Shown piece after piece: positions 41,985 through 50,357 of a DNA stretch of 64,000 bases. The stretch lies in the NCBI GenBank assembly GCA_003280985.1, contig QCDH01000002.1, positions 62,001 through 126,000 of the forward strand. The letters run 5' to 3'. Below the pieces are notes generated by a model, which searched no databases, was not told the DNA's origin, and worked only from the letters and a program-made list of their open reading frames with translations. Source of the DNA: Prochlorococcus sp. AG-355-A18. GTDB lineage: Bacteria; Cyanobacteriota; Cyanobacteriia; PCC-6307; Cyanobiaceae. Each line of letters opens with the position of its first letter. Position 1 is the stretch's first letter. A program made the translations under genes and the position numbers.

Positions 41985-43694
41985 ATGTCGTATAAAATTG
42001 ACAGAAATACTTATGCTCAAACATACGGTCCCACTATTGGGGATAGAGTAAGACTTGCTGACACTGAACTATTTATTGAAGTAGAAAAAGATTTAACTAC
42101 TTACGGAGATGAAGTTAAATTTGGAGGAGGTAAAGTTATTCGAGATGGGATGGGACAGTCTCAAGTAACAAGAGAAGATGGAGCTGTAGATACCGTAATA
42201 ACTAATGCCCTGATCGTAGATTGGTGGGGAATAATTAAAGCTGATGTGGGTATAAAAGATGGCATAATTTTTGATATCGGTAAAGCTGGTAATCCTGATA
42301 TCCAAGATAACGTTAATATTGTTATCGGCGCCTCAACAGAAGTAATAGCTGGAGAAGGCCATATTCTTACTGCAGGATCAATAGATACTCATATACATTT
42401 TATATGTCCCCAACAAATTGAAACAGCTCTTGCTTCAGGAATTACAACTATGTTGGGAGGTGGAACTGGACCAGCGACTGGAACAAACGCCACTACCTGC
42501 ACTCCAGGTCGTTTTCATATTTCTCGAATGCTTCAATCTGCAGAAGCATTTCCTATGAATTTAGGTTTTTTTGGTAAAGGAAATTCTATGAATGAAAGAA
42601 ATCTTATTGATCAAGTCGAAGCTGGTGCATGTGGATTAAAGCTCCATGAGGATTGGGGAACGACTCCATCTACAATAAATTCTTGTTTAAATGTTGCAGA
42701 TAACTTTGATGTTCAAGTTTGTATTCATACTGATACTTTAAATGAGGCAGGTTTTGTTGAAGATACCATCAATGCTATTGCAGGAAGAACAATTCATACT
42801 TTTCACACCGAAGGAGCAGGTGGAGGTCATGCCCCAGATATTATTAAAATCTGTGGGGAAAAAAATGTTCTCCCAAGTAGTACTAATCCAACAAGACCTT
42901 ATACAAGAAACACACTTGAAGAACATCTTGATATGTTGATGGTATGTCATCATTTAGATTCTAAAATTCCAGAAGACATCGCATTTGCGGAATCAAGGAT
43001 AAGAAGAGAGACTATTGCCGCAGAGGATATTCTGCATGATTTAGGCGCCTTTTCAATTATTGCTAGTGACTCTCAAGCTATGGGAAGAGTTGGGGAAGTA
43101 ATAACAAGAACTTTTCAAACTGCTCACAAAATGAAAGTTCAAAGAGGGCCTCTATCAGAGGATTCTGATAGGAACGATAATTACAGAGTAAAGCGATATA
43201 TCTCAAAAGTTACAATAAATCCTGCAATAGCTCATGGTATTAATAAATATGTTGGATCTATAGAAAAGGGGAAAATTGCAGACTTAGTATTGTGGAAACC
43301 TTCATTTTTTGCGGTAAAGCCTGAATTAGTTGTTAAAGGAGGATCTATAGTTTGGTCCCAAATGGGTGATGCAAATGCTTCAATTCCTACTCCAGGCCCA
43401 GTACATGGTCGACCTATGTTTGCAAGTTTCGGTCAATCTCTAATTAAGAGTTCTTTTACCTTTTTAAGTAAAAATTCAATTGATCAAAATATTCCAACAA
43501 AATTAGGTTTGCAAAAGGAATGTATTGCCGTAGAAAATACGAGGAATATTAATAAATCACACTTAAAACTTAATAGCAAACTACCAAATATTTCTGTTGA
43601 TCCTCAAACTTATGAAGTTTTTTCCGATGGGGAACTTCTTACTTGTGAACCACTTGATGAAGTCCCCATGACTCAGAGGTATTTTTTGCTTTAG
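41985..43694 (+). CDS. ureC: Urease subunit alpha (catalytic)
   Basis: A 569-residue UreC. Nickel ligands are visible: His136 and His138 in [11 protein letters not shown], the carbamylated Lys219 in [10 protein letters not shown], His248 in CIHTD and His274 in [15 protein letters not shown]. The catalytic His lies in MVCHHLD near 322. It hydrolyses urea to ammonia and carbamate, giving the cell a nitrogen source. The stop overlaps the convergent gpgS stop by 4 bases with no terminator. Confidence 0.98.
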
Positions 43695-44917
43695 AAGTTT
43701 TTAATTAATGCTTTTTCAATTGTCTTTATGTCTTTTGACCCAGCAATAGCTAAATCTTCTTGCAGTTTGTTCTCACAAGACAGAACTCTTGACCAACTTG
43801 GTAATTGCCTTGTGGTAGGGCAAGCTAGATAATCCTCTCTAGCAGGTCTTAATAGTTTCGCAAACTTTTGTACGGATAATTCTTCTTCGTGCCTATCGTA
43901 TGGAAGTTGATTAACTGCTGAATCTAATCCAAATTGTTTTACCCGATCTTCTCCAACTCTTTTGTAGAGAACTTCTAAAGTTGCTAATTGGGTACTAGTT
44001 AAGGTCTCGGCTTGATGCTCCATGAGACCTCTTAAAACACTTGAAAGTATTTCTGTACACATTTTTTGCAATCCTTCTTTAGATGAATCTCCAATATTCT
44101 TATGTTTATGATCAAATAAACCCAGGTCAACTTGGGCTATTTTGGAGGTTCTTACGTTTCTATATACCTCTGATAATAAACCTATCTCTAAACCCCAGTC
44201 ACAAGGTATTCTTAAATTCATAGCAAGGTCTTTAGTAAAAGCAAACTCTCCTGCTAATGGATATCTAAACGATTGAAGATATTGTAAAAACGGCCCCTTC
44301 CCAACTAACTGCTCAAGACTTGCTAACAAAGGACCCACGAATAATCTTGTTGCTCTACCTTGCAATTGATTTGTTTCTAAGGATAACCTACTGTAAAAAG
44401 CTTTTACATATGAAATTCCATATGATTCATCTAGAAGTGGCAGTATCATTCTTGAAGGATATAAAGGACTAAAAGTTCTTATATCAGCATCAAAAAGAGC
44501 AACAACTTCTGATTTTCTAGTAGCAACTCCTATGCCTTGCCATACAGCCCATCCTTTACCTGGAGTTCCTAAAAGCTCTAAGCCATTTTTTTCTTGGCTT
44601 TTTAATAGCTCTATTACAGAGGGGGAAATAGTCCATTGAACGTGAACTGGGAATGGCATTGAGTCAAAAAATGATTTTGCTGCCTTAACTTGCTCAACAG
44701 TTTTTGCAGAGAGAGCAATCACTAATTCATTTAAGCCTGTTAGGTTTTTTAAAACTTCTCTTATATCTTTTAATGCTGGACGCTCAAACTCTTCATATAA
44801 GCAGGGTATTAAAATGCTAGTTGGTCTTTTTTTAAGACTTTTGTTTAATTCTTTAAGTAAATTTCCTGTAACTCCATATTCATGTATTGTTGTGATTAAC
44901 CCTTGTTGAAAGTCCAT
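43691..44917 (-). CDS. gpgS: Glucosyl-3-phosphoglycerate synthase (GT81-type)
   Basis: A 408-residue glycosyltransferase. The GT-A metal motif DAD is at 143-145 ([10 protein letters not shown]), preceded by [22 protein letters not shown] and [27 protein letters not shown] holds the typical GpgS acidic/Trp motif. It transfers glucose from a nucleotide sugar to 3-phosphoglycerate, the first step toward the compatible solute glucosylglycerate, which Prochlorococcus is known to accumulate. It diverges from the phosphorylase-phosphatase-kinase operon at 44968. Confidence 0.88.
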
Positions 44918-44967
44918 TTTCTAAATGATGTGCAGAATGGTATTAATACTTCGATAATTTTTTCAAA

Positions 44968-46728
44968 GTGAAGCAAAATGATTCAGAGAAAAAATTAGAT
45001 AGATTGAAAATTAATAAATTGTTAAAAACAATTTATTCAAATCATACTACAGAAGAAATTAATTTTATTTCAAATCAATTATTGCAGATTTTAGATGATT
45101 TCTCAGACAAATCTTCTTATGAAGAAATTAGAGATAAGGAAAGGTGGAATGAATCTCATTCGGTTTTGATAACTTATGCAGATAGTATTTATGAAAATGG
45201 CGAGTCAACATTAATAACTCTTAGGAAGTTGTTAAGTAAACATTTTGGCAGTCTTTCTAAAGTTGTTCATATTCTTCCTTTTCTGAAATCCACAAGCGAT
45301 GGAGGTTTCGCAGTCTCTAGTTATGATTCTTTAGAAGAAAAATTTGGTGTTTGGGATGATCTCAAAAGTATTTCTAAAAATCATGATCTGATGGCTGATT
45401 TGGTACTAAACCATGTTTCATCATCTCACCCATGGGTTCAACAATTTATTAAATCCCAAGAACCAGGCATATCAAATGTTTTTTCACCGAAACAAAATCT
45501 TGACTGGTCAAATGTAGTTAGACCTAGAAGTTCTTCCTTGTTTTCTCAAATAAATACTGAAGATGGCCCTAAACAAGTTTGGACAACTTTTGGTCCAGAT
45601 CAAATTGATTTGAATTGGCATAATCCAGTAATGACTCTTGAGTTCTTAAATTTAATTATTACTTATTTATCTAATGGAATTAAATGGTTAAGGCTTGATG
45701 CTGTAGGTTTTATTTGGAAAGAATCAGGGACTACATGCTTACATTTGCCGAAAGCGCATTCAATTGTGAAACTCTTAAGAGTTCTTTTAAATGATCTTCT
45801 TGATGAGGGAGTTTTAATAACTGAAACTAATGTTCCTCAGAAGGAAAATCTATCTTATCTGATTCCTGATGATGAAGCCCACATGGCATATAATTTCCCA
45901 TTACCTCCTCTTCTCCTAGAGGCAATTATTACTTCAAGAGCTGATATTCTAAACTCATGGATTTTTGATTGGCCCATATTGCCTGAAGATACTACTTTAT
46001 TTAATTTCACTGCATCGCACGATGGTGTTGGGCTTAGAGCTCTTGAGGGTTTAATGAATGAGAAGAGAATTAAAGATTTATTAATTAATTGTGAGAAAAG
46101 AGGCGGATTAGTAAGTCATAGACGTTTATCAAATGGTGAGGATAAACCTTATGAATTAAATATTAGTTGGTGGAGTGCTATGGAAGATTCCAGTAGAGAT
46201 GCTAAAAGATTTCAATATGAGAGATTTATTTTGAGTCAATTATTAGTAATGGCTCTGAAAGGGGTCCCTGCTTTTTATCTACCAGCATTACTAGCTTCAG
46301 AAAATGATATCAAAAGTTTTTCTATGACAGGTCAAAGAAGGGATCTAAACAGAGAAAAGTTTAAGTCAGAAAATCTTTTAGCCGTTTTAAATAATCCTGA
46401 ATCTAATGCTAACAAAAACTTAAAATATCTCCGTAATGCAATGGATGTTAGATCAGAATTAAAGCAATTTCACCCTTGTTCGGAAATGAAATGTTTGTCT
46501 AAAGGTAGAAGTGATATTGTTGTAATCAAGAGAAGTAAAGGCCCTAAATCAGTTTTTGCAATCCACAATATGACTGAAAATAAAATTAATTATCAATTGA
46601 ATGATAATGATCTACCAAAAATAATTGATAATGATTTCAATACCCATGATTTTTTAACATCCACTAAATACAATTGTAAAAATATAAGTCTTGACCCTTT
46701 TCAAGTAATTTGGCTTAGTGCTTTATAA
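44968..46728 (+). CDS. GH13_18 sugar phosphorylase, probably glucosylglycerate phosphorylase
   Basis: A 586-residue GH13 protein starting at a GTG. The four GH13 regions are intact: ADLVLNHVSSSHPW (region I), KWLRLDAVGFIWK with nucleophile Asp244, LITETNVPQKEN with acid/base Glu286, and FTASHDGVGLR with Asp352. This set is that of the sucrose-phosphorylase subfamily GH13_18, which also includes sucrose 6-phosphate, glucosylglycerol and glucosylglycerate phosphorylases. The neighbours gpgS, a phosphatase and a glycerate kinase favour glucosylglycerate as substrate (inference); sucrose phosphorylase is the main alternative. Confidence 0.8.
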   Translation: MKQNDSEKKLDRLKINKLLKTIYSNHTTEEINFISNQLLQILDDFSDKSSYEEIRDKERWNESHSVLITYADSIYENGESTLITLRKLLSKHFGSLSKVVHILPFLKSTSDGGFAVSSYDSLEEKFGVWDDLKSISKNHDLMADLVLNHVSSSHPWVQQFIKSQEPGISNVFSPKQNLDWSNVVRPRSSSLFSQINTEDGPKQVWTTFGPDQIDLNWHNPVMTLEFLNLIITYLSNGIKWLRLDAVGFIWKESGTTCLHLPKAHSIVKLLRVLLNDLLDEGVLITETNVPQKENLSYLIPDDEAHMAYNFPLPPLLLEAIITSRADILNSWIFDWPILPEDTTLFNFTASHDGVGLRALEGLMNEKRIKDLLINCEKRGGLVSHRRLSNGEDKPYELNISWWSAMEDSSRDAKRFQYERFILSQLLVMALKGVPAFYLPALLASENDIKSFSMTGQRRDLNREKFKSENLLAVLNNPESNANKNLKYLRNAMDVRSELKQFHPCSEMKCLSKGRSDIVVIKRSKGPKSVFAIHNMTENKINYQLNDNDLPKIIDNDFNTHDFLTSTKYNCKNISLDPFQVIWLSAL

Positions 46729-46730
46729 AA

Positions 46731-47528
46731 ATGATAGAAAATTCTTCTATTTGGGTAGTTAGTGATGTAGATGGTACTTTAATGGATCACTCATATGATT
46801 TATCACCTGCCAAAGAAACTATAAAAAAACTACAAAAATTATCCATACCCGTAATTCTTTGTACAAGCAAAACTGCTTCTGAAGTAAAAGTAATTAGAAA
46901 GGAACTTAACTTGACTGATCCTTATATTGTAGAGAATGGTGCGGCAATATATGGCGAATCTCTTGAAGGAGTAAATGGAGAAATTATTCTCGGGATAAAG
47001 TACGAATCTCTTGAAGAAATCTTAAATTTTATTTCTAATGAAATCGATTATAAACTTACCCCTCTTAATGATCTCACTGATGAAGAAGCCACTCAGCTAA
47101 CAGGTTTAGAAGGCAATTCATTGAATTTAATGCGTGATAGGCATTGGAGTATGCCTTTTTTAAATCCGCCAAGTTATTTAGAAGAGAAAATTAATATCTG
47201 TTGTAAAAATTTCAATGTTGATATTTTTAAGGGAAATAGAATGAGTCACTTATTATCTACAAAATCGAATAAAGGTATAGCAATAAATGCTCTTAAAGAA
47301 TATTCAAATGTTCAAAATATTGAAATTATAGGTTTAGGTGATTCTCCAAATGATTTGCCTTTACTTTTAAACTCAGATATTAAAATCGTTATTCCTGGTA
47401 TAGAAGGCCCTAACTTAAATTTACTAGATCAATTAAAAGATTTGGATTTTATTTTAGCTTCTGAACCAAATGGATATGGTTGGAAAAATGAAATCAATAA
47501 ATTGATAAATAAGCGAGAACTAAGTTAG
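46731..47528 (+). CDS. Glucosyl-3-phosphoglycerate phosphatase (MPGP-type HAD)
   Basis: A 265-residue Cof/MPGP-type HAD phosphatase: VSDVDGTLMD with Asp12 and Asp14, LCTSKTASEV (motif II), IVENGAAIYG, and GLGDSPNDLPLL (motif IV). The mannosyl-3-phosphoglycerate phosphatase branch acts on glycosyl-phosphoglycerates. Next to gpgS it most likely converts glucosyl-3-phosphoglycerate to glucosylglycerate. It starts 2 bases after the phosphorylase gene. Confidence 0.83.
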   Translation: MIENSSIWVVSDVDGTLMDHSYDLSPAKETIKKLQKLSIPVILCTSKTASEVKVIRKELNLTDPYIVENGAAIYGESLEGVNGEIILGIKYESLEEILNFISNEIDYKLTPLNDLTDEEATQLTGLEGNSLNLMRDRHWSMPFLNPPSYLEEKINICCKNFNVDIFKGNRMSHLLSTKSNKGIAINALKEYSNVQNIEIIGLGDSPNDLPLLLNSDIKIVIPGIEGPNLNLLDQLKDLDFILASEPNGYGWKNEINKLINKRELS

Positions 47529-47532
47529 AAAG

Positions 47533-48477
47533 ATGAAAGATTTAAATATTAATTTTCCTCTTGAAAAATTTGAAAGATTAATTATTGATATTGGTTGGGA
47601 ATCCTTGGATGATTGGTTCAATTTTTGGAATAAGAAAAGAAACATTCTTTCAATTGATCAATTTTGGAACAATAAAGTAAATGACGACTGGATTTGGGGT
47701 TTATCTTTACCTCTTTTATCACAGGCTTATAAATTTCAAAATAATTTTTCTGAAAGAAAAATTATTGGAATCTCAGCTTTACCTGGTACAGGTAAAACAA
47801 CACTAGGTAAATGGCTCGAAGCTATATCGTTAAAATTAAACTTCAAAATTGCTGTTATTTCAATTGACGACTTTTATCTCCCATCAAATGAAATGAAATT
47901 AGCAATTAAGAATAACCCTTGGAATGTTTCAAGAGGGTTTCCAGGTAGTCACTCAGTAAAATTAATGCATGAAAAATTATCAAATTGGAAGATAAATGGA
48001 GAATTAAATGTACCAGTTTTCGATAAATCTTTAAGAAATGGTTTAGGAGATAGATCTCATTGGAGATTAGATAAGCCTGATTTATTAATTCTTGAGGGAT
48101 GGTTTTTGGGAATTAAACCTTATTGCATTGATATAAATGATCAATCCTTAGATACAACAAATTTAAGTCTTCATGAATCATCTTATGTATTAAAAATTCA
48201 AAATAACCTAAACGAATATTTAAATATTTGGACTTTAATAGACACGATTTGGCACTTAAAGCCCTTGAAGATTGAATATATGAATATGTGGAAAACAAAT
48301 CAGGAAAAAGAAATGTTTTTACAGAAAGGTAAAGCTCTTAAAGATGAAAAATTATCTAATTTCTTGAGAATGCTTAATGTCTCAATTCCTCATAAAAGTT
48401 TTGATGTCATAAAATCTTACGCGCTTTTATTAATTGATCAAGAAAGAAATGTAGTTGAGGCTGGATTGAATTTGTAG
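47533..48477 (+). CDS. Glycerate kinase (plant/cyanobacterial GLYK-type P-loop kinase)
   Basis: A 314-residue P-loop kinase with Walker A ALPGTGKTTLG (82-92), SIDDFYLPSNEM, RGFPGSHS and DLLILEGWFLG, a pattern of the GLYK/uridine-kinase-like group that includes D-glycerate 3-kinase. The product, 3-phosphoglycerate, is the acceptor for GpgS. It starts 4 bases after the phosphatase gene, completing a four-gene set. It would also serve photorespiratory glycerate. Confidence 0.82.
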   Translation: MKDLNINFPLEKFERLIIDIGWESLDDWFNFWNKKRNILSIDQFWNNKVNDDWIWGLSLPLLSQAYKFQNNFSERKIIGISALPGTGKTTLGKWLEAISLKLNFKIAVISIDDFYLPSNEMKLAIKNNPWNVSRGFPGSHSVKLMHEKLSNWKINGELNVPVFDKSLRNGLGDRSHWRLDKPDLLILEGWFLGIKPYCIDINDQSLDTTNLSLHESSYVLKIQNNLNEYLNIWTLIDTIWHLKPLKIEYMNMWKTNQEKEMFLQKGKALKDEKLSNFLRMLNVSIPHKSFDVIKSYALLLIDQERNVVEAGLNL

Positions 48478-48570
48478 AATTATCTAAATTTTCTGTTTTA
48501 AAGTAATTCTTTATACATTTTTTTTAGCTTTAAATAGTGTTTAATTAAAATTAAAATTTGCTGCTTAGTA

Positions 48571-48798
48571 ATGGTTGAGTTTTCTTACAAAAATGAAGGT
48601 TGTAGGATGGTTGTTTTGAGATGTGTTGGTCCATCAAATTTTTTCTTAGAGAGAGTTTTATTCCCAACTGACATTCTTACTTTTATGGCCCCAAATGATT
48701 CAAGAGTTGAAATCTGGGGAAATGAATTATATGGGCCTAAGTTGGAAGAAAGAATAAGAATTTCTGCTGATAACGAAGATTCGACTTTAGTGGCATAG
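48571..48798 (+). CDS. DUF1830 protein (75 aa)
   Basis: A 75-residue protein matching DUF1830: FSYKNEGCRMVVLRCVGPSNFFLERVLFP (in pieces) then the F-x-A-P-x-x-S-x-VEIWG pattern. A small cyanobacterial family without known function. No signal or membrane segment. A 93-base AT-rich gap separates it from the kinase gene. Confidence 0.78.
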   Translation: MVEFSYKNEGCRMVVLRCVGPSNFFLERVLFPTDILTFMAPNDSRVEIWGNELYGPKLEERIRISADNEDSTLVA

Positions 48799-48887
48799 AA
48801 CAGATATTATTTAATTGTCTTCGAGTCAAAATTTTTTACAAATACCAAGTTTTTATTGATATTATCTAACTAGTTTTAGTTTTATAG

Positions 48888-49013
48888 ATGTATTATTTTT
48901 CTTCCTTTGCAATAGGGGGTTTCGTTCCTTCTGCAGCTATTGCCGGAGTTTTACTTTTAGTTGGCTTAGGAGCCTTCTTTTATCTTGGCATTAAAGGACC
49001 TACAGATTATTAA
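48888..49013 (+). CDS. Small single-span membrane protein (41 aa), possible photosynthetic or NDH subunit
   Basis: An ATG at 48888 opens a 41-residue frame: SSFAIGGFVPSAAIAGVLLLVG and FFYLGIKGPTDY. One membrane span with short polar ends is the layout of small subunits of photosystems, cytochrome b6f or NDH-1. I cannot match it confidently to PetL, NdhP or similar, so I leave it unnamed. The next small protein starts 64 bases downstream. Confidence 0.65.
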   Translation: MYYFSSFAIGGFVPSAAIAGVLLLVGLGAFFYLGIKGPTDY

Positions 49014-49076
49014 ACATTAGTTAATCAACAATTCGTAATTTTAGTTTTTCATAACCTCCTTTAATAAGTTAACAAA

Positions 49077-49211
49077 ATGGATTTAACAACTATTTTATTT
49101 ATATTAAGCTTACCTTTCGTATTATTGACAGTTTATTTTGGAACAAAAAATGATTTTTACGAGAGTGAAAATTATAAAGGTGATGGTTGTGCGCACGATG
49201 TTAAAAGGTAA
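49077..49211 (+). CDS. Small single-span membrane protein (44 aa)
   Basis: An ATG at 49077 gives a 44-residue frame: one span (TTILFILSLPFVLLTVYFG), then a polar tail with Cys and His (DFYESENYKGDGCAHDVKR). The tail is conserved-looking rather than random. A good ribosome binding site-like CCTCC is not on this strand, so the start is the nearest ATG. Function unknown. Confidence 0.55.
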   Translation: MDLTTILFILSLPFVLLTVYFGTKNDFYESENYKGDGCAHDVKR

Positions 49212-49219
49212 CTTTATTA

Positions 49220-49489
49220 CTAATCACCTCTAAATACACAGGTCCATTTACTATCAAATTGCCAAACAGGTTTGTATATTTCATTAGTAATTTTTTCGCC
49301 TGCCTTATTACAAGTTTCTAAATCTTTCATGGGAATAGAATGTAAGGAAGGACTCGTTATTCCACTAACCTCTGGCCTTCCTCCAGGCCCTTGTCTATAA
49401 GTTCCAATTATTAACCAATAGTTAGCTTTCGCAGAACCAGAAAAGATTAAGGAAAGAAAAAATAATATTAAAATAGATTTTTTTTTCAT
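49220..49489 (-). CDS. Exported hypothetical protein (89 aa)
   Basis: An 89-residue protein with a signal peptide (KKKSILILFFLSLIFSGSAKA, about 1-22). The mature part starts NYWLIIGTYRQGPGGRPEVSGI and has two Cys (DLETCNKAGEKI and KWTCVFRGD), consistent with a disulfide in the periplasm or lumen. It belongs to a small secreted cyanobacterial type I cannot name. It ends 9 bases from the preceding convergent ORF. Confidence 0.68.
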   Translation of the reverse strand: MKKKSILILFFLSLIFSGSAKANYWLIIGTYRQGPGGRPEVSGITSPSLHSIPMKDLETCNKAGEKITNEIYKPVWQFDSKWTCVFRGD

Positions 49490-49556
49490 TTTTCCATACT
49501 AGCTTTTAATTTTTAAATGTAAATTGCTATTAATTAATTAGGTAATTCAATAATTA

Positions 49557-50357
49557 TTGGAATATTTAAAATTTGTTATATATGGATTAATTCAAGGGTT
49601 GACGGAATTTATCCCTGTAAGTAGTACAGCACACTTAAAAGTTATTTCTCTTTTTTTAGGTATTGATGATCCTGGAGCCTCTTTGTCCGCTACTATTCAA
49701 CTTGGAAGTGTTCTAGCCATAGCTTGGTATTTTAGAGATGATATTTTTGATTTCAGAAGTCAATCTTCAAAAAAATTTCTTAAATACCTCTTAAATAAAA
49801 GATTATCAAAATCTATTTTGATTGGGACTATACCAATTGTTTTGCTTGGTGGGAGTATAAAAATATTTATCCCTTCTTTTTTTGAAAACGTTCTACGTTC
49901 AAATTTATCAATAGCATTGGTCTCATTTTTAATGGCTTTTTTTATGTACTTGGCAGATATTTCGAAAAAAGGTTCTATTAATATTAAAAACCATAATTAT
50001 TCAAATAGTTTTTTGATAGGTTTCTTTCAAGCATTTGCAATTTTTCCAGGTGTTTCAAGATCTGGGGTCACTATTTCTAGCGCTTTAATATCAGGATGGG
50101 AAAGAGGCGATGCTGCGAAATTTTCTTTTCTTTTAGGGATGCCAGCTATTTCTCTCGCTGCGATTGTTGAGTTTATTTCTTCATTTAATGATTTTTTTTT
50201 ATTAGGATTCCCTCCCCTTTTTGTTGGTCTTATTACGACATTTTTGTCCTCTTTATTAGCGATAGATTTCTTATTAAAGTATTTTTCTTCAAATGGGTTG
50301 AAAATATTTATTATCTATCGTGTAATTTTTGGTGTCGTAATTCTTTTGAATTTATAA
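49557..50357 (+). CDS. uppP: Undecaprenyl-diphosphatase UppP (BacA)
   Basis: A 266-residue multi-pass membrane phosphatase starting at TTG. GLTEFIPVSSTAHL (15-27) has the catalytic Glu17, the PVSS and His26, and the second motif is PGVSRSG. It recycles undecaprenyl diphosphate for cell-wall synthesis. About eight membrane segments are visible. No in-frame ATG exists near the start, so TTG is well supported by the motif position. Confidence 0.94.
   Translation: MEYLKFVIYGLIQGLTEFIPVSSTAHLKVISLFLGIDDPGASLSATIQLGSVLAIAWYFRDDIFDFRSQSSKKFLKYLLNKRLSKSILIGTIPIVLLGGSIKIFIPSFFENVLRSNLSIALVSFLMAFFMYLADISKKGSINIKNHNYSNSFLIGFFQAFAIFPGVSRSGVTISSALISGWERGDAAKFSFLLGMPAISLAAIVEFISSFNDFFLLGFPPLFVGLITTFLSSLLAIDFLLKYFSSNGLKIFIIYRVIFGVVILLNL

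Follow-up and report, generated by a model that had tools for sequence, protein, structure and literature searches.

A predicted glucosylglycerate synthesis and recycling cluster in Prochlorococcus and its operon-borne glycerate kinase

In plants, D-glycerate 3-kinase (GLYK) closes the photorespiratory cycle. Why does a Prochlorococcus genome in which the searched photorespiratory supply genes were not found encode a kinase homologous to it over most of its length, and why beside genes for a compatible solute? The locus lies in a 64,000-nucleotide stretch of Prochlorococcus sp. AG-355-A18 (assembly GCA_003280985.1, contig QCDH01000002.1, positions 62,001 to 126,000), the whole of which is called the window here. 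It comprises gpgS and, diverging from it, ggaP, gpgP and glyK. The cluster very probably encodes both the synthesis and the recycling of the solute glucosylglycerate (GGA). A fuller account, which we regard as evenly balanced between right and wrong, has four parts. The kinase, which elsewhere in the family is found by itself and can complete photorespiration, would have joined the GGA operon in an ancestor of a Prochlorococcus-like lineage. The high-light branch would later have been stripped of glycolate oxidation and of the tartronate-semialdehyde step, and there the kinase would owe its survival solely to the glycerate released by solute recycling. Lastly, a single, strongly conserved divergent promoter of 50 bases would drive both gpgS and the operon and would switch the cell between making and recycling the solute.

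Enzyme assignments and the predicted cycle

The open reading frame (ORF) list agrees with the preliminary description of this DNA in the coordinates of the four genes, the divergence of gpgS, and gaps of 2 bases between ggaP and gpgP and 4 bases between gpgP and glyK; 50 bases separate gpgS from ggaP. Two marks set glucosylglycerate phosphorylases (GGaP) apart from sucrose phosphorylases: the motif (T/S)ETN, and Glu at a position of loop A that is Gln in most other clades (PMC7178133). The ggaP protein has T285-E286-T287-N288 as its strand beta-5 motif, invariant in 14/14 aligned sequences including E. coli YcjM. Its loop A carries Glu396 within a PYE, again in 14/14 aligned sequences, and DKPYELN replaces the sucrose-type N(L/V)D(I/L/V)YQ. 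Where ggaP has ETN and YE, E(I/V)H and YQ stand in the aligned sucrose phosphorylases; YQ is shared by the solved structures 1r7a and 7qqj and by a pair of proteins annotated as sucrose phosphorylases. Identity between ggaP and YcjM, whose RefSeq label is glucosylglycerate phosphorylase, is 33% over 574 aligned positions. The TIGR03852 sucrose phosphorylase model gives the window protein 163.6 bits, below the cut-off of 334.4. Other GGaP types also fall under it (YcjM, 221.1; two plasmid proteins, 181.8 and 189.6), and two plasmid-encoded proteins that carry a sucrose phosphorylase annotation pass it (881.4 and 439.6). The motifs and the sub-cut-off score support the prediction of a glucosylglycerate phosphorylase rather than a sucrose enzyme, in line with the preliminary description. 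Its expectation that such proteins are labelled sucrose phosphorylase by default was half right, for the two GGaP-type plasmid proteins carry the annotation 'sugar phosphorylase'.

Family models and solved structures point to the other three activities. The GpgS model NF040724 matches the window protein at 6e-119 over nearly its whole length (397 bits, cut-off 700), and the solved GpgS 7pdo/7p5l match amino acids 114-284 at about 2e-17. The gpgP protein scores 560.6 bits (3.9e-169) with NF001215, the HAD-IIB model for mannosyl-3-phosphoglycerate phosphatase (MPGP), above the cut-off of 488; its solved relatives are 1xvi, a putative MPGP (3e-27), and the MPGP 3ztw (3.4e-16). A Pfam search of the glyK protein assigned no family. 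Solved D-glycerate 3-kinases match it (7xpc, 9.1e-17, amino acids 23-278; 6ckg, 2.5e-16), and it carries GTGKTT and SIDDFYL stretches, the first of which we take to be the P-loop. Several points weigh against these assignments. The GpgS score lies under the curated NF040724 cut-off. The model matched by the phosphatase takes its name from mannosyl-3-phosphoglycerate, and the sequence leaves the sugar, glucosyl or mannosyl, unfixed. The GH13_18 tree is weak: it holds YcjM as the single characterized enzyme in full plus two annotated sucrose phosphorylases, and YcjM groups with those two at 90/73. The tree was not used as proof because long branches meet in it and YcjM joins the sucrose phosphorylases.

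With these assignments the cycle drawn in the preliminary description holds together on paper. GpgS would couple nucleoside diphosphate (NDP)-glucose to 3-phosphoglycerate, GpgP would strip the phosphate to give GGA, GGaP would use phosphate to split GGA into glucose 1-phosphate and D-glycerate, and GLYK would spend one ATP to convert glycerate to 3-phosphoglycerate. The GpgP step is irreversible, the GGaP step is reversible and GLYK consumes ATP, so that a full turn nets NDP-glucose + ATP -> glucose 1-phosphate + NDP + ADP. The cycle had been called reversible; the word fits the phosphorylase but not the cycle, one turn of which costs a nucleotide sugar and one ATP. Compared with hydrolysis, phosphorolysis spares one ATP for each glucose. 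GGA contains no nitrogen and no phosphorus; its synthesis releases phosphate and its phosphorolysis takes phosphate up. The solute had also been proposed as a carbon and phosphate store. The phosphate part was rejected because GGA holds no phosphate, and the carbon part stands. The pathway would give a very abundant phototroph a nitrogen- and phosphorus-free solute that serves as osmolyte and carbon reserve. Plant and fungal class III glycerate kinases yield 3-phosphoglycerate (PMC2063504), the product expected of the last step.

Conservation of the cluster and related systems

Conservation of the locus was counted in the best 80 relatives from a scan of named genomes, 77 titled Prochlorococcus and 3 'uncultured Synechococcaceae'. 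One cultured isolate, MIT 9302 (89% identity), was recognized among them. We take it to belong to the high-light clade, and the 'high-light' label of the window's genus (g1) is likewise our assumption. The order and strands of the four genes are the same in 76/76 evaluable loci, 4 loci being too short on one side, and the arrangement is therefore not due to chance. The GTG start of ggaP is kept in 80/80 loci.

Co-occurrence was determined in 121 genomes of the family, drawn evenly from the larger group: the window's own, which is 70% complete, and 120 at 90% completeness or more. The window's genus contributes nine genomes, the other eight being at least 99% complete. The cut-offs were at least 450 bits for gpgS, at least 500 bits for ggaP, at least 76 bits for a clear kinase and more than 480 bits for full-length GlcD. 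Excluded before counting were GH13 matches scoring up to 120 bits (other members of the amylase family), the gpgS matches of genomes G011, G042, G014 and G060, kinase matches below 60 bits (G012, G018, G023, G043, G051, G063 and G064) and GlcD matches of about 80-95 bits. On this basis gpgS occurs in 56/121 genomes, gpgP in the identical 56, and ggaP is intact in 55 of them. The 56th (G055, locus L050) has a ggaP fragment with 5 stops in the place of ggaP and an open kinase ORF. In G014 (locus L051) a partial gpgS with 3 stops lies beside an open kinase ORF, and neither ggaP nor gpgP was found in that genome. This distribution and the two decaying clusters indicate that the module tends to be kept or lost together. 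The preliminary description proposed to check whether all four genes co-occur, which holds for gpgS, ggaP and gpgP (56, 55 and 56 of 121) and fails for the kinase (110/121). Its tie between phosphatase and synthase is borne out, for none of the 65 gpgS-less genomes carries gpgP.

The cycle is not new. An operon of Prochlorococcus NATL2A is described with de novo synthesis of GGA and its recycling to glucose 1-phosphate and 3-phosphoglycerate (Coe 2024; PMC11631117), and a 2020 review places GGaP next to glycerate kinase, gpgS or gpgP (PMC7178133). The NATL2A operon shares with the window the genus, the co-location of the genes and the combination of synthesis and recycling in one scheme. It differs in a transporter gene immediately adjacent, while urease genes adjoin gpgS in the window; the NATL2A gene list was compared by description. 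The strict GGaP enzymes (EC 2.4.1.352, GH13_18) of Allomeiothermus/Meiothermus silvanus, Spirochaeta thermophila and E. coli (YcjM) have in common with the window the TETN motif, the loop-A Glu and the association with gpgS, gpgP and glycerate kinase; the ycjM operon differs and is without gpgS. Synechococcus PCC 7002 has gpgS-ggaP-gpgP on the consecutive locus tags A2021-A2023 (PMC10873239), a marine Synechococcus cluster is given as gpgS-gmgG-gpgG (PMC7522525, citing Scanlan 2009), and the middle gene of WH8102 SYNW2434-2436 entered an osmolyte network through operon prediction (PMC2874817). These Synechococcus clusters hold three of the window's four genes together, and the kinase is not among the genes named for them. 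A low-salinity study gives gpgP as PMM0515 / NATL1_05721 and gpgS as PMM0962 / NATL1_09131 (PMC9606707 Table 4). Because gpgP adjoins ggaP/gpgS in all 76 evaluable loci here, yet those genes, judged from locus numbers only, are far apart, that study may have followed another phosphatase. Among plasmids, Pseudoalteromonas pPBSW1 encodes a 581-residue fusion (L154:2829-4571), annotated merely as a HAD-IIB hydrolase, of a class III glycerate kinase (about residues 49-293) and a GpgP-type phosphatase (about residues 302-564); it adjoins GpgS and a GGaP-type phosphorylase. An alphaproteobacterial plasmid holds phosphorylase, GpgS, phosphatase and galU together.

The same genes could serve mainly the use of GGA taken up from other cells, such as Alteromonas, rather than the turnover of the cell's own pool. 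In NATL2A, an enrichment of transcripts for recycling and for the transporter led to this proposal (PMC11631117). In two genomes of genus g32 an ORF of 257 amino acids adjoins gpgS (L046:3228-3998 and L047:3111-3884), and the one scanned, in L046, is a TauE/SafE permease; the g32 ORFs could correspond to the NATL2A transporter gene. We did not find such a transporter adjoining the operon in the window or in eight loci of the same genus, the shortest ORFs of which were not scanned. Moreover, gpgS is present in all 56 gpgP genomes, so that synthesis has not been dropped while recycling was kept. We consider uptake unlikely to be the main role of the operon and prefer the reading in which the flux would run from the cell's own synthesis to its own recycling.

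The glycerate kinase and its glycerate supply

Class III GLYK is reported as general in cyanobacteria, including Prochlorococcus (PMC2063504). A clear class III kinase was found in 110/121 genomes, 53 with and 57 without gpgS; 7 more have a weak match and 4 have none. The preliminary description tied the kinase to gpgS and named its wide occurrence without gpgS as evidence to the contrary, and that is what was found, in 57 of the 65 gpgS-less genomes. Class I glycerate kinase occurs in 2/121 genomes and class II in none, neither being present in the window's genus, so that glycerate kinase in this family is normally of class III. The class I carriers, G026 and G069, belong to genus g26, and the class III kinase was not found in any of the 3 sampled g26 genomes, where it has probably been replaced by the unrelated class I enzyme. 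In the third, G053, neither class was found.

Of the 56 gpgS genomes, 26 have the kinase no more than 2 kb from gpgP and 27 have it elsewhere; in 3 its position is unclear. The 27 unlinked kinases are on the same contig at a distance of at least 155 kb (17) or on another contig (10). In L071 the unlinked kinase sits among HAD, DUF565, FtsH and UPF0182 genes, and by eye the ORFs around it are similar in size and order in L054, L057, L058, L066 and L067. A kinase tree was built from 33 chosen rows: 20 of the 26 linked genomes, including the window's; G014, treated as linked because its kinase lies beside the gpgS remnant; and 12 of the 83 other genomes with a clear kinase. The weak match of G012 (L069) was left out, and L055 is partial. 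One group (94/95) unites all 21 linked rows with 4 free ones, and the four genomes of these free rows (G010, G029, G030 and G033) are without gpgS. At least 3 changes of the linked label are required on this tree, and a single change sufficed in 0% of 200 bootstrap trees. One move of the kinase into the cluster followed by losses of solute genes fits the tree and is possible, though not proven.

The survey also covered genes that would supply photorespiratory glycerate. Full-length GlcD was found in 94/121 genomes, none of the matches above the family cut-off, and a GOX/LOX-type oxidase in 17/121. The two never occur together, which looks like replacement of one glycolate oxidizer by the other. 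The GOX genomes span six genera, all of which except g10 include sampled genomes with a linked kinase. Neither enzyme was found in 10/121 genomes, namely all nine of the window's genus and G013, which has a clear kinase. A tartronate-semialdehyde-reductase-like protein, with no match above the family cut-off, is present in 91/121 genomes and, counted by eye, in 17/17 of the other linked-kinase genomes (the G055 copy has an internal stop); it was found in 0/9 genomes of the window's genus and is also missing from 21 further genomes. Its absence is less telling than that of GlcD and GOX because 21 other genomes miss it and no match passes the cut-off. A weak GlcD-like match (E 1e-21 to 1e-23) persists in 8/9 genomes of the window's genus. 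MIT9312 has a GlcD2 of unclear function, lacks 2-phosphoglycolate phosphatase, and GOX/LOX is in none of the high-light genomes examined in that study (PMC9723591). The weak matches may be this GlcD2.

All nine sampled genomes of the window's genus retain the kinase within the operon. The simplest reading is that GGA would be the main recognizable source of glycerate for the kinase in high-light Prochlorococcus. The solute cycle may have taken over a kinase of photorespiration. The GlcD2-like protein is a caveat, as is the serine-hydroxypyruvate route, another possible source of glycerate. It could be argued instead that the kinase simply serves photorespiration and that its place in the operon is incidental, since it occurs in 57 genomes lacking gpgS, is unlinked in 27 of the 53 gpgS genomes with a clear kinase, and is accompanied by the GlcD-like match in 8/9 genomes of the window's genus. 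We find this improbable, because the operon kinase is kept in all nine sampled genomes of the window's genus, in none of which full-length GlcD, GOX/LOX or the reductase-like protein was found, because MIT9312 also lacks 2-phosphoglycolate phosphatase (PMC9723591), and because in Pseudoalteromonas the kinase is fused to GpgP. The re-dedication of the kinase, if true, would show how a streamlined genome retained an enzyme after losing the pathway thought to need it, and would explain a glycerate kinase in high-light Prochlorococcus despite one strain's reported lack of 2-phosphoglycolate salvage enzymes. The literature search returned no account of the kinase's move into the operon or of its fate after photorespiratory gene loss; for this kinase in Prochlorococcus it gave one paper, from 2007, on the distribution of glycerate kinases (PMC2063504). 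As far as the literature searched shows, these two points are new, and what remains adds one more example to a system already described.

Least credible is a GH13_18 protein that acts as a sucrose phosphorylase or has dual sucrose/glycerate activity, as XpGP from Xylanimonas proteatiae does: TIGR03852 is the best NCBIfam model for ggaP and a dual GH13_18 enzyme is on record (PMC11009771), but ggaP misses the cut-off of that model, has ETN and YE instead of the E(I/V)H and YQ that mark sucrose phosphorylases, and co-occurs with gpgS and gpgP, which leaves this a very slim prospect.

The divergent intergenic region and the flanks

The gap between gpgS and ggaP is exactly 50 bases in 80/80 loci; in L034, one of eight separately fetched genomes of the same genus, it is 49 bases by ORF ends. 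Among 81 sequences (the 80 loci and the window), 32/50 columns are invariant and the nucleotide diversity (pi) is 0.046. The four-fold sites of the flanking genes have a pi of 0.28 in ggaP (4/100 invariant, 80 sequences) and 0.26 in gpgS (4/112, 75 sequences), after sequences of other length were dropped (1/81 and 6/81, respectively). The 50-base region is far less diverse than these sites and is thus under selection. Such selection would be expected of overlapping promoters or operators, and overlapping promoters are probably what it holds. The near-palindrome TATTAATA lies within it and is, on our own reading, a candidate shared -10 box. A promoter scan gave no excess (27 promoter-like sites, 27.5 expected), with one site in the intergenic region on the minus strand. 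Outside the window's genus, a GCAACAGAAT-like motif upstream of gpgS, some 12 bases from its start, in L040-L045 and L048 resembles GTGCAGAAT of the window's genus; it is not present in L046, L047 and L049. The likeness between the two suggests a possible older regulatory element.

Opposite transcription of gpgS for synthesis and of ggaP and glyK for recycling from one 50-base region would allow either to be favoured and a futile cycle to be avoided. In dark-tolerant NATL2A, transcripts for precursor synthesis are down and those for recycling are up (Coe 2024; PMC11631117), the pattern that a make-or-recycle switch would be expected to produce. Other observations tell against so simple a scheme. 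A terminator scan of 43600-49700 gave 9 terminator-like sites, mostly inside genes, against 2.8 expected (standard deviation 1.5). Plus-strand sites lie inside ggaP (46251), gpgP (47139) and glyK (47696), and because all three genes contain one, a single transcript across ggaP-gpgP-glyK is not assured. A make-or-break switch would also be incomplete because the recycling operon includes gpgP, whose product would act in synthesis. The 50-base region offers a place where one could study how the cell decides whether to build up the solute or to consume it.

Table 1. Features of the glucosylglycerate locus (window coordinates).
Feature	Coordinates	Strand	Description and basis
gpgS	43691..44917	-	408 amino acids; predicted glucosyl-3-phosphoglycerate synthase, GT81 type; ORF, NF040724 and solved GpgS matches
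Divergent intergenic region	44918..44967	none	50 bases; probably overlapping promoters of gpgS and ggaP-gpgP-glyK; length and conservation
ggaP	44968..46728	+	586 amino acids, GTG start; predicted GH13_18 glucosylglycerate phosphorylase; TETN, loop-A Glu396, YcjM likeness
gpgP	46731..47528	+	265 amino acids; predicted HAD-IIB glucosyl(mannosyl)-3-phosphoglycerate phosphatase; NF001215 above cut-off, solved MPGP matches
glyK	47533..48477	+	314 amino acids; predicted class III (plant type) D-glycerate 3-kinase; matches to solved GLYK

The G+C content of the region is 31%. The ends of gpgS and ureC overlap tail-to-tail by 4 bases. In the window and the eight fetched loci of its genus, the cluster is bordered by ureC at its gpgS end and by short ORFs and uppP beyond glyK. 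By eye, short ORFs occupy 48570-49015 (+) between glyK and an 89-residue ORF without a Pfam match at 49220-49489 (-), which is kept between the operon and uppP in several genera.

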